A stretch of DNA of 20,826 bases, taken from IMG/VR virus record IMGVR_UViG_3300030329_002819, positions 1 to 20,826 of that record; one strand, given 5' to 3'. Made by a program: the position numbers and the translations under genes. The stretch is from a virus. Of the stretch, positions 7,355 to 20,506 are shown piece by piece. The notes under the pieces are model-generated. The model did not search any database. It had not been told where the DNA came from and worked only from the letters and a program-made list of their open reading frames with translations. The first letter of the stretch is position 1; each line of letters opens with the position of its first letter.

Positions 7355-7566
7355 ATTCGTGTATCTCCTTTTATTACTTTTACCTCTAAACCATCAGAAT
7401 GTGCAAAGTATTTAAACGTACTTAAAAACTCATGGTTCTCATCTATGTATAGAGTTGATGGCTCTATTACACATCTGTCTTTTAACTCTACATATTCTAA
7501 ATAAGCAGAATAATCTTCATCATCATACTCATCTAAAGTTTCAAGAGCTTCTATTGTTTTTTTCAT
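7348..7566 (-). CDS. Acidic hypothetical protein (72 aa)
   Basis: ATG at 7566 is preceded by AGGAGG about nine bases upstream, within the 3' end of the polymerase gene (26-base overlap). The N-terminal half is acidic (MKKTIEALETLDEYDDEDY) and the second half reads like alternating strands (LSTFKYFAHSDGLEVKVIKG). I recognise no family. It has its own strong promoter within the polymerase gene (7595-7623), so it is probably expressed above polymerase level. Confidence 0.75.
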   Translation of the reverse strand: MKKTIEALETLDEYDDEDYSAYLEYVELKDRCVIEPSTLYIDENHEFLSTFKYFAHSDGLEVKVIKGDTRIC

Positions 7567-9604
7567 GCTGTTTTACCTCCTGCATATTTAACCAATCATA
7601 ACCTATTTTAATGTCCGTGTCAAGTGGCACATTAAAATCTATGTTATAATATTCTTTTAATGATTTTATAACATTTGAAGTTCCTTCTTCAAATATTCTA
7701 CTCATAATATCTTTTTCATCACTGCAAACATCTGCTATAATAGAATCATGAACTGTATTTATTAATACACTTTTAACATTTTTTTCTTGCATAAGTTTAT
7801 ATATATTAATACAAGCTAATGGTACAATATCCGCAGTAGCAAAACCTTGCACAGGATAATTTTTTATCTGTGTCCCATATGTAGATCCACCCCAAGGTGT
7901 TCTTTCTGCATATGGAAAAGAATATTCTCTACCAGTTGGTAATTTTACTCTTTTAAATCTTATAGCTTCACTTTGTAATTTTTCGTGCCAAGTTTTTATG
8001 TCCTTATATTTTTCTAAAAATTTAGAGTAGTATCTTTTCTCATCTTCTGTACCTGTAACACCACCATATAAAGGTTTAAATGTATGTGCTTTTGCGTCTT
8101 GTCTTGATACACCTATGATATCTGCAGTATATTGATGAACATCTATTTTATTTTTTATATCCTCCATGCCTTGTTTATCTTGTGCAAGAAAAACAGCAGT
8201 TCTAAACTCTAGTTGTGCAAAGTCTACCTCTAATATCATACCATCTTTAAATCTAGATGTAACAACTTTACGAATAGGAAAAGTCTTACCTCTTGGTTGA
8301 TTCTGAAAGTTAGGATCTCTGCTTGATAATCTTCCTGTAGCAGTAATTGCTTGCATAAATTTAGGATGTAAAAAACCTTTTTCATTAGTAAAGTTTTTTA
8401 ATCCTGTAACAAATGTATTTAAGTAAGTATCAACTGCATTATGCCTTACGATAGCATCTATAAATTCTTTAAACTCGCCTTCAGCCTCACCAGCTATCTT
8501 ACTTAAAGTTATTCTGTCTGTTCTAAATCCAGCCTCAGCTACATCATAAACACTTCTAGGTCTCTGCTGAAAACCAGCTACTCTTCCCATACTTACATAT
8601 ATGTAACCATCTCCATCACAAGCATCACACTTAGAATAATTTTTATATGGGCTACCATCTTTTTTTATTTTTTTTATAACACCTTTACCTTTGCATGTCA
8701 TACATTGTTCTGCATTTGTCTTATAAATTTTTTCTACATTTTCAGATACTAAATTTCTAAATTGTAATCTAGAAAAATTTGGTCGTCTTTTATTTTTACG
8801 AGTAGCTTTATCAATACCAACGTTAAATATTTTAGCCCAATGTTTTTTATCTTTAGGTTTAACACTATATATCAACCAAGATAATTGTTCAGGACTAGAT
8901 AAATTAATTTTAGTATCACCCATCTGTTTATTAACTATCTTATCTATCTTTTGTTTTAAATATGCAAACTCTGCACGATATTCTCTTTCTACTTTAGATA
9001 AGTCTTCTAGATTTATGTTAATACCATTTCTCTCCATGTCAGATAAAACAATTAAAAATTCATTCATCATCTTTGCTGTCATTAATAAATGTTTATTTTT
9101 AGGTAATCTAAAGTCTAACATCTGTGAATCAAATAATTTTTTTGTTATATCAACATCTATTCTACCATATTCTTCAACAACATCAGCAGGTATATTCTGA
9201 AAAGGTATACCCCTATCTGTAAATTCTTTTATACGATTATCTTTAGATCCTATTCTTCTTCTTCTACAAGACATTTCTAATGTTAAACTTTTTCTTATAC
9301 CTCTATTAAGTATATACTCCCCCAACATAGTATCATATACTCTACCAGAATATTTAAATCCTGCCTCTAATAACCACATTAAATCAAATTTTATATTATG
9401 TCCAACTAATAAAGTTGTTTTATCTAAAGTAGATTGTATCTTATCATAACAACCTTTGTCTATTCTTTCAGAATGATTAGTAAAATAATACTCATCATTT
9501 ATTCCAACACTTACTAATATATTATCAGGATGAAAAGGTGATGGATCATAACCACCTGTCTCAGTAACTTGCCAAGATGTCTCTACGTCTACTACACTAA
9601 TCAT
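7541..9604 (-). CDS. polA: Family A DNA polymerase with DnaJ-like zinc insertion
   Basis: A replicative polymerase of 687 residues. The 3'-5' exonuclease is complete: VVDVETS (Asp6, Glu8), VGHNIKFDLMWL (67-78, Asp74) and YGRIDVDIT (146-154). The polymerase motifs are ILEVDFAQLEF (457-467, motif A, Asp461), RQDAKAHTFKPLYGG (501-515, motif B) and VHDS (618-621, motif C, Asp620). Between them, CMTCKGKG (301-308) and CDACDGDG (326-333) form a zinc motif like half of the DnaJ central domain. HMO-2011-type phages are reported to have such a polymerase, so this is the main taxonomic marker here. The start ATG overlaps the helicase stop as ATGA. No thioredoxin-binding loop of T7 type is evident. Confidence 0.97.
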   Translation of the reverse strand: MISVVDVETSWQVTETGGYDPSPFHPDNILVSVGINDEYYFTNHSERIDKGCYDKIQSTLDKTTLLVGHNIKFDLMWLLEAGFKYSGRVYDTMLGEYILNRGIRKSLTLEMSCRRRRIGSKDNRIKEFTDRGIPFQNIPADVVEEYGRIDVDITKKLFDSQMLDFRLPKNKHLLMTAKMMNEFLIVLSDMERNGININLEDLSKVEREYRAEFAYLKQKIDKIVNKQMGDTKINLSSPEQLSWLIYSVKPKDKKHWAKIFNVGIDKATRKNKRRPNFSRLQFRNLVSENVEKIYKTNAEQCMTCKGKGVIKKIKKDGSPYKNYSKCDACDGDGYIYVSMGRVAGFQQRPRSVYDVAEAGFRTDRITLSKIAGEAEGEFKEFIDAIVRHNAVDTYLNTFVTGLKNFTNEKGFLHPKFMQAITATGRLSSRDPNFQNQPRGKTFPIRKVVTSRFKDGMILEVDFAQLEFRTAVFLAQDKQGMEDIKNKIDVHQYTADIIGVSRQDAKAHTFKPLYGGVTGTEDEKRYYSKFLEKYKDIKTWHEKLQSEAIRFKRVKLPTGREYSFPYAERTPWGGSTYGTQIKNYPVQGFATADIVPLACINIYKLMQEKNVKSVLINTVHDSIIADVCSDEKDIMSRIFEEGTSNVIKSLKEYYNIDFNVPLDTDIKIGYDWLNMQEVKQHEKNNRSS
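7595..7623 (-). promoter_or_regulatory. Sigma-70 promoter inside the 3' end of the polymerase gene
   Basis: Leftward strand: exact TTGACA (7623-7618), 17-bp spacer, TATGAT (7600-7595). The predicted start is about 20 bases before ATG 7566, leaving room for the AGGAGG ribosome site. It lies within polymerase codons near residue 660, so protein and promoter share the sequence. Confidence 0.7.
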
Positions 9605-18968: not shown

Positions 18969-18996
18969 AAATTAGAAATTTCTCCCCTAGAGAAAA

Positions 18997-19042
18997 CCCT
19001 AGTCGTTTCCCTCTTTTTAGTTCCCAATGTTAACGGCTAGGG
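18997..19042. repeat. Long-range stem CCCTAGTCGTT/AACGGCTAGGG
   Basis: Arms at 18997-19007 and 19032-19042 pair over 11 positions (one G-T) around a 24-base loop. The CCCTAG/CTAGGG ends recur in the right-end non-coding region (20732-20770). Confidence 0.6.
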
Positions 19043-19049
19043 ATAGTAG

Positions 19050-19114
19050 CAATGTCTTAGTCTTTTATTCCTATTTTTTTTCACACGTATCGTTATACAA
19101 TGTCTTAGTCTTTT
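19050..19114. repeat. 17-bp direct repeat
   Basis: CAATGTCTTAGTCTTTT occurs exactly at 19050-19066 and 19098-19114, 48 bp apart, each running into a T-rich stretch. Possible initiator or regulator binding sites. Confidence 0.85.
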
Positions 19115-19118
19115 TTTT

Positions 19119-19147
19119 CCAAATTTTTTTTTGTGTTTTAAATTTGG
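19119..19147. repeat. AT-rich inverted repeat
   Basis: CCAAATTT (19119-19126) and AAATTTGG (19140-19147) form a perfect 8-bp dyad around a T-rich 13-base centre. Suitable as an easily melted element. Confidence 0.7.
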
Positions 19148-19172
19148 CAAAATTGTGGCAGAAATAAGGCAA

Positions 19173-19233
19173 AGAACAAAACAAGAACATATATAGAACA
19201 CTTACACACGTGTAAATGTTCTACAAATGTTCT
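19173..19233. repeat. Helically phased AGAACA/TGTTCT array with central dyad
   Basis: AGAACA starts at 19173, 19184 and 19195; its inverse TGTTCT starts at 19217 and 19228. Every neighbouring pair on one side is 11 bp apart, about one DNA turn. The centre has TTACAC (19202-19207) and GTGTAA (19210-19215), so the 50 bp from 19184 to 19233 are symmetric around 19208.5. It looks like a cooperative protein-binding array (operator or replication initiator sites). Confidence 0.8.
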
Positions 19234-19304
19234 CATTATTCAACCAAAAATAGAAAACCCAAAATGGACACAAAGATTGAAAAAAACTTTTTTTCGACAC
19301 ACGC

Positions 19305-19333
19305 TTGACATACTTTCGCCATTATTGTAGATT
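19305..19333 (+). promoter_or_regulatory. Sigma-70 promoter of the parS-containing gene
   Basis: Exact TTGACA (19305-19310), 17-bp spacer, TAGATT (19328-19333). It leaves a leader of about 35 bases before ATG 19375. Confidence 0.65.
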
Positions 19334-19374
19334 ACAACTTATAGTATATGTTTAATTTTAACAAAGGAGGAAAA

Positions 19375-20433
19375 ATGAACATATCAAAAGCACAACCCAA
19401 GGTTGATAAAAATGTTTCACGTGAAACACAACCTACAAGCGAATCAGTTTGGAGTGATGTTAAAACTATCGCTAAAGGGGAAAAACAAGCAAATGGCAAA
19501 ATGCTTTATTTAAGTAAAGATTTTTATTCTTTATTTAAAAATAAAAAAATGCCCGTTGAATTATATTTTGATGAAACTGAAAATGACAAATCAGTTTCAA
19601 AAATATTTTTTAATGATGACGGAACGCACAAAACTTTAATTGCAAAGGACTTTAATAAGTTCACAAATAAAGTTTTAATCACAGCTTTAGGGCAAGTTTT
19701 GGAAAATTTCCAAACTAAATACCCTTATGAGTATAGAGTGATTAATGACGTTTCACCATTAGTAATGTTTTATATTGCTAATGAAAAACACTTCAATTTA
19801 GATACAATGTTGAACGAAGAAACAGACCCAGTTCAGTTGTTGATGAATTGGAATATGTTTTCTTATAAAGATTTAGCAGATGAAAATTTAAAAGTTTTCA
19901 GATATAATCTTGTAAATAGATTATTTGCAAAATCAGAAATGGGAAAACAAATTAGTAAAACTTTTAGAGGTCAAGACGGAGTTTTAGAAATTGTTAAAAC
20001 TTATTTCTTGCCAAAAAAAGTTGAACAAGAAAATAGGCAGAATGCTACTGAAAGTTCTTTTAGTCAGTCATTAAAATCAATAAATGATGTTGAAAAAGGA
20101 GTTTTAGGTAAAGCTAATTTAATAACTAATGTTGCTAAAAGTGAGCAAGGCAAAAACACTTCAGCAAATCATTATTTAATTAATGAGGTTAATGAATTAG
20201 TAAAAGCAGGGGAAAAGATAATCTCACTACTTGCAGGGAATAACCACCCAAAAGCTAGTGAGGGAATTGAAACCCTTTATGTTGCGATAGTTCGAGCAAT
20301 GCACAAAGGCAATTTTAGGACTTATGAAAAAACAAAGTTTCCTAAAATTAAATCTGACTATATGCCGAGAATAAATCAGAAACCATTTGATTTAGTTTTA
20401 GGCAATCTTCAAAAATATAAAGCTAACATTTAA
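19375..20433 (+). CDS. Unknown phage protein with internal parS (352 aa)
   Basis: ATG 19375 (MNISKAQPKVDKNVSRETQ) is chosen because AAAGGAGG ends five bases before it; the longer frame from 19348 starts ahead of that site. The N-terminal ~25 residues are polar and probably flexible, then KQANGKMLYLSKDFYSLFKN, a charged alpha/beta part, helical blocks (NKVLITALGQVLENFQTKYP, VSPLVMFYIANEKHFNLD), a Ser/Gln/Asn-rich linker near 220-245 and a helical C-terminus (NEVNELVKAGEKIISLLAGN). No family is recognised and no catalytic motif is visible. Its codons for NVSRET form an exact parS. With promoter and control region of its own, it is probably an early gene; it could be a replication initiator or regulator acting at the repeats upstream (inference). 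Confidence 0.85.
   Translation: MNISKAQPKVDKNVSRETQPTSESVWSDVKTIAKGEKQANGKMLYLSKDFYSLFKNKKMPVELYFDETENDKSVSKIFFNDDGTHKTLIAKDFNKFTNKVLITALGQVLENFQTKYPYEYRVINDVSPLVMFYIANEKHFNLDTMLNEETDPVQLLMNWNMFSYKDLADENLKVFRYNLVNRLFAKSEMGKQISKTFRGQDGVLEIVKTYFLPKKVEQENRQNATESSFSQSLKSINDVEKGVLGKANLITNVAKSEQGKNTSANHYLINEVNELVKAGEKIISLLAGNNHPKASEGIETLYVAIVRAMHKGNFRTYEKTKFPKIKSDYMPRINQKPFDLVLGNLQKYKANI
19413..19428. promoter_or_regulatory. Exact parS centromere site
   Basis: TGTTTCACGTGAAACA is a perfect 16-bp palindrome identical to the bacterial parS consensus bound by ParB/Spo0J. It lies in codons for VSRET, including CGT for Arg, whereas AGA is the usual Arg codon around it. No ParA or ParB gene is seen in the window, so the site would be served by host ParB. 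Confidence 0.9.
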
Positions 20434-20442
20434 CTTAACACA

Positions 20443-20475
20443 GGGGGGTATTGGTACAAAAACCAACAACCCCCC
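20443..20475 (+). terminator. Hairpin after the 352-residue gene
   Basis: GGGGGGT (20443-20449) pairs with ACCCCCC (20469-20475), with an inner TTGGT/ACCAA stem (20451-20455 and 20462-20466). The stem is strong but only TAGGTTTATC follows, so termination without a T run is uncertain. Confidence 0.55.
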
Positions 20476-20506
20476 TAGGTTTATCAGGTGTTAAGCTAAT
20501 TCTCTC

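Follow-up and report, generated by a model that had tools for sequence, protein, structure and literature searches.

The DNA analysed here, referred to as the window, is a 20,826-nucleotide stretch of the IMG/VR virus record IMGVR_UViG_3300030329_002819; at 20.8 kb it is a fragment covering part of a genome of probably ~53 kb, the size of the related Pelagibacter phage HTVC033P (53 kb), so that ~30 kb lie outside the window. Four features make up the locus under study:

18969 to 19374, no strand assigned: non-coding control region with conserved motifs, upstream of the 352-aa gene and aligned in relatives
19305 to 19333, plus strand: sigma-70-like promoter TTGACA-17-TAGATT of the 352-aa gene, from a consensus scan, ~80 bp upstream of the parS-type site
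19375 to 20433, plus strand: gene of a 352-aa orphan protein from the ORF list, with residues 14-19 (NVSRET) coded over the site
19413 to 19428, no strand assigned: parS-type site TGTTTCACGTGAAACA, a proposed host ParB nucleation site, identical in the relatives L121, L122 and L123 and to the chromosomal parS of SAR11

An earlier note on this DNA had claimed an exact copy of the universal parS consensus, and the 16-mer TGTTTCACGTGAAACA at 19413-19428 is indeed a perfect palindrome with 16/16 identity to the consensus given in PMC7383237 and PMC10197239. It is the sole site in the window at up to three mismatches. Its claimed improbability also holds, as Markov models of order 0 to 3 predict between 3e-6 and 7e-6 exact matches in the window by chance; this expectation, together with the control palindromes described below, rules out a chance match as the origin of the 16-mer. 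Contamination or a bacterial prophage flank was ruled out for the window because the site lies inside a phage-family gene having phage relatives.

The site is read in frame near the start of the gene, as had been claimed, through the codons AAT GTT TCA CGT GAA ACA. According to an AF2 model, residues 1-19 of the protein form a predicted disordered tail (pLDDT < 50), and the position of NVSRET within such a tail, if correctly modelled, supports a role of the site at the DNA level. PHROGs, Pfam, PDB and BFVD fold searches with the 352-aa protein returned nothing of weight, the best BFVD match (E 0.005) being itself uncharacterised. Homology with gp84 of HTVC033P, which is encoded at the corresponding place, was not supported. 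Directly 3' of the gene, a G-rich hairpin (AACACAGGGGGGT / ACCCCCCTAGGTT) occupies 20437-20481, and further G-runs follow to the end of the window.

Upstream, the ~400 bp from 18969 to 19374 contain no listed ORF of at least 60 aa, and a longer alternative start of the 352-aa gene (19348) reaches just the last bases of this stretch. The control region that had been suspected next to the site fits this non-coding stretch with its promoter-like sequence at 19305-19333, although promoter-like sites were no more frequent in the scan overall than in shuffled DNA. The TTGAC of the promoter-like site is aligned and invariant in eight relatives. The region also contains an imperfect 26-bp palindrome at 19196-19221 (GAACACTTACACACGTGTAAATGTTC), whose GAACA..TGTTC arms recur in most relatives and which is possibly an operator or origin element, and two 32-bp direct repeats at 19050-19129 (CAATGTCTTAGTCTTTT...; 48 bp spacing), whose TGTCTT core recurs in relatives and which are possibly iterons.

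The phage had been assigned to the HMO-2011 type, and its DNA polymerase A confirms this assignment: the protein (7541-9604, minus strand) shares 84.7% identity with that of HTVC033P and contains, at residues 296-336, an insert resembling a DnaJ zinc finger, the known oddity of the HMO-2011 type. The order of primase, helicase, polymerase and metallophosphoesterase genes is the same in the window and in HTVC033P. Given this close relationship, the host is very likely SAR11.

As had been claimed, the 20.8 kb of the window, a fragment of a probably ~53 kb genome, contain neither ParB nor ParA by profile search (no match to PF02195 or PF13614). The incompleteness of the record would allow for a plasmid-like ParABS system of the phage's own, with parA and parB on the part of the genome outside the window. 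We regard this as extremely unlikely, as searches for ParA and ParB found neither in the three relatives that share the site (L121-L123) nor in the complete 53 kb of HTVC033P, the site has the consensus of the host, and HMO-2011-type subgroups IV-X, which include HTVC033P (IX), are described as lacking identifiable lysogeny genes (PMC9038755). The closest relative in culture is HTVC033P, in which parS is missing even when three mismatches are allowed.

The sequence of the site recurs on the host side. Fifteen SAR11 single-cell or partial genomes were picked by a SAR11 16S probe, and 10 of them contain parS within two mismatches, the best site being exact or one mismatch away in nine. These nine sites all lie ~1.5 kb from parB inside rsmG (a gene named here from position and sequence), where they are read as VSRET. 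SAR11 genomes with a parS match mostly have one exact or near-exact site. In several of these genomes the 16-mer is identical to that of the window and likewise in frame as (N)VSRET; the SAR11 sites, however, lie beside parA-parB, whereas the copy of the window is carried by a phage, in an unrelated gene and with no par genes nearby.

Eleven of the 15 genomes gave a ParB match. Matched by eye, the SAR11 proteins show LGRGL and GERR as well as GKSR and GHA (GQA in two), the latter pair being the equivalents of R173 and G201, which are parS-reading residues conserved in ParB (PMC7383237). With the host assigned from relatedness to HTVC033P, SAR11 thus provides a cognate ParB that has the parS-reading residues. 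ScpA was found in 12 of the 15 genomes; with ParB and ScpA present, SAR11 has the means for partition as well as for SMC loading. A search for MipZ gave just weak, partial matches, several of them at parA itself.

To be selected as DNA, the site should be better conserved in relatives than other synonymous positions, a comparison that the earlier note had proposed. All 16 bases are kept at the same codons in L121 (91% protein identity), L122 (48%) and L123 (47%), so that diverged branches at 46-48% protein identity retain them in full. The segment is missing in L124/L125, L142 and L144/L145 (44-46% identity). The carriers do not form one clade, L122/L123 being sister to the segment-less L144/L145 (support 95/96), and at least two changes are therefore needed. 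At shared residues outside the site ~64% of the codons are retained between the two carrier lineages, compared with six of six at the site; given identical residues, the probability that all six codons are identical in all four carriers is ~0.006, a statistic from four sequences in two lineages. The arginine codon of the site, CGT, accounts for one of the 33 other arginine codons in these genes. The two lineages also share many of the bases and some of the codons next to the site, so that recombination could have spread the segment. Taken together, we regard these comparisons as moderate evidence for selection on the DNA of the site within the 352-aa family. Since HTVC033P, L124, L125, L142, L144 and L145 do without it, the site would be useful and not essential to the phage.

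The same data bear on the possibility that the 16 bases have no function as DNA, either because the NVSRET peptide is what matters or because the site is a relic of chance or recombination that has yet to decay. The absence of the site from several branches of relatives and the conservation of some neighbouring codons between the two lineages would fit such an origin. We nevertheless consider it very unlikely: the peptide lies in a predicted disordered tail, all carriers retain the rare CGT codon, and enrichment of the 16-mer across unrelated phages, in and outside genes, has already weakened this explanation.

That enrichment emerged from an N-padded blastn query against the 50,697 records of INPHARED. 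An exact copy is present in 286 of these records (~412 sites, from 824 hits counting both strands). The 286 are not independent of one another: Listeria phages contribute 87, many of which belong to a single genus, and among the Listeria entries some short ones may derive from host assemblies. Two dinucleotide-matched control palindromes were found in 0 and 0 INPHARED records. In IMG/VR, the exact 16-mer is present in at least 120 contigs as against 11 for one control palindrome. When the pattern was reversed, none of 24 records of carriers or relatives contained it, even with two mismatches allowed. The same N-padded blastn against a plasmid collection gave no match, E in that larger collection being such that it would exceed the limit. 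ParB (PF02195) scored above cut-off in three of the 97 IMG/VR carriers tested, with one further weak hit, and in one of 15 isolate phages tested; for the IMG/VR carriers, the absence of ParB is a weak indication because many records are fragments.

Among the hosts of site-bearing isolates are Listeria, Microbacterium, Arthrobacter, Gordonia, Lactobacillus, Bacillus, Enterococcus, Vibrio and Ruegeria, and some of the phages are microviruses or inoviruses; no Enterobacterales phage is present among the ~100 distinct INPHARED records among the matches listed. In addition to exact sites, Goe1, Chedec 11, Athos, Bacchae and Vibrio phage phi 3 have one-mismatch near-copies. In homologous genes the 16-mer is kept within variable linkers, as in the endolysins of Goe1 and Chedec 11 (72%), the scaffold-like pair L053/L111 (44%) and the pair L054/L083 (61%). 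Together, the spread of the 16-mer and its retention point to selection on the DNA of the site across phages, for which we consider the evidence strong. The scaffold-like L111 gene matches, at 33%, a gene of Pelagibacter phage EXVC031P Hodr that contains the two-mismatch version TGTTTCATTTGAAACA, and a second pelagiphage-like lineage thus appears to carry the site. The TerL genes of L043 and L074 had been considered as one gene with the site in two reading frames; this frame argument was set aside because in L043 the site more likely precedes the true start by a short distance (AAGGAG, then ATG).

Several records stand out by the number or the position of their sites. The 5.8 kb inovirus bajarodino virus 69 (L289; PQ006099.1, 1-5843) has five exact parS and no ParB, and another bajarodino virus among the matches listed has 12 hits over both strands. 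Five exact sites are also present on the 12 kb L043 contig. In the T5-like Vibrio phage phi 3 (L301; KP280063.1, 2934-2949) an exact parS lies in the terminal repeat between A1 and A2, and the phage also has a one-mismatch copy; in T5-like phages the DNA of the terminal repeat enters the cell first.

Such site numbers raise the question of whether the site is mainly a decoy that titrates ParB, and with it SMC, off the single parS of the host, so that segregation and division stop and resources are kept for the phage. A multicopy phage would outnumber the mostly single sites of the SAR11 genomes with a match, and the five sites in a 5.8 kb inovirus and on the 12 kb L043 contig show that many sites are possible in small phages. 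However, several sites would be expected of a decoy and many carriers, the window included, have a single one; inoviruses, whose hosts generally survive infection, carry the site as well. We therefore judge titration to be unlikely as the main role.

The positions of the sites bear on a further explanation, by which ParB bound ~80 bp downstream of a promoter would spread across the control region and keep the orphan gene, together with early genes close by, silent or delayed until the phage copies dilute it. The promoter-like sequence ~80 bp from the site fits this explanation, as do several isolate phages in which the site lies roughly 15-70 bp upstream of a gene. Elsewhere, however, the site is found deep within genes (an endolysin linker, a primase-helicase, a scaffold gene), and neither gene nor position is common across phages, which makes a role in transcription timing quite unlikely. 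Both titration and timing overlap with the reading that we prefer, a site selected for binding host ParB, and both are compatible with ParB binding.

Use of host ParB by a phage has a precedent in Bacillus. According to Meijer 2005 (cited in PMC9437464), the genome of phi29 is trapped in spores by Spo0J (ParB). Exploitation of host ParB by a lytic phage is hence known in principle, in a spore former; phi29 is the only precedent that we met. The phi29 genome contains four one-mismatch copies, TGTTTCACGTGGAACA, and no ParA or ParB hit (PF13614, PF02195), Goe1 one exact and one one-mismatch site, and Chedec 11 two exact sites and one with one mismatch. Like the phage of the window, phi29 and its relatives (B103, Goe1, Chedec 11) are lytic and carry host-type parS, with no ParA/ParB hits where tested. 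They differ in having several sites instead of one, in the location of the conserved site, which is an endolysin linker in the phi29 group and an orphan gene in the window, and in their Bacillus host, which sporulates. SAR11 is a non-spore-former, and the known benefit for phi29 is for that reason inapplicable here.

Other known systems are more distant. Phage-plasmids such as P1, N15 and mycobacteriophage RedRock also carry a centromere on phage DNA, but they encode their own ParA and ParB and have sites of their own type (in RedRock, repeated 8-bp motifs; PMC7157519), whereas the 20.8 kb window has neither gene. Binding sites for host proteins of the cell cycle or of development also occur on phage DNA, as CtrA sites in alphaproteobacterial phages and Spo0A boxes in phi29 show (PMC9437464); the partner proposed for the site of the window, in contrast, is the partition clamp ParB and not a transcription factor. 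The literature search, mostly outside subscription journals and without preprints, met no paper that describes parS as generally present in phages lacking ParB.

The earlier note had proposed that a host-type centromere without partition genes of its own is a candidate docking site for host ParB. This proposal is supported by the conservation of the DNA in relatives, the matching parS and ParB of the host and the excess of the 16-mer across phages, all of them comparisons of sequences. On these grounds we are rather confident that the phage site would recruit host ParB, and the 16-mer is probably a selected host-ParB site that places phage DNA under the control of host ParABS and SMC, whatever the exact benefit. 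Host ParB would nucleate at the phage site, close as a CTP clamp and slide along the neighbouring kilobases. With ParB on its DNA, the incoming or replicating phage genome might be treated by the host as an extra chromosome origin, which host ParA would position and partition on the nucleoid and onto which SMC-ScpAB would possibly be loaded. The phage would benefit by having its DNA stably placed and co-segregated in a tiny, slow-growing host, comparable to the case of phi29 and Spo0J, and accumulating phage copies would also draw ParB from the single host parS. Co-segregation or positioning is the benefit that we prefer as the most likely one, ahead of titration and transcription timing.

Looking beyond SAR11, we lean towards a wider reading, in which the carriage of host parS by phages without ParB is a widespread and repeatedly evolved strategy for using host ParB and SMC on their own genomes outside sporulation, the SAR11 phage being one case. 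This reading covers lytic and other phages, those of SAR11, Listeria, Actinobacteria, Lactobacillus, Vibrio and Ruegeria, phi29-like phages, microviruses and inoviruses. Because the same site is present in so many unrelated phages, borrowing the segregation machinery of the host may be a common and largely overlooked phage habit. If so, many ordinary lytic phages would be subject to host chromosome-segregation machinery of which they encode no part, and ParB exploitation would have a simple sign that can be read from the sequence. Phage infection would be linked to ParB-CTP clamps and SMC loading, and the site would provide an entry to phage persistence and DNA organisation in slow-growing hosts such as SAR11, the most abundant bacteria of the ocean.
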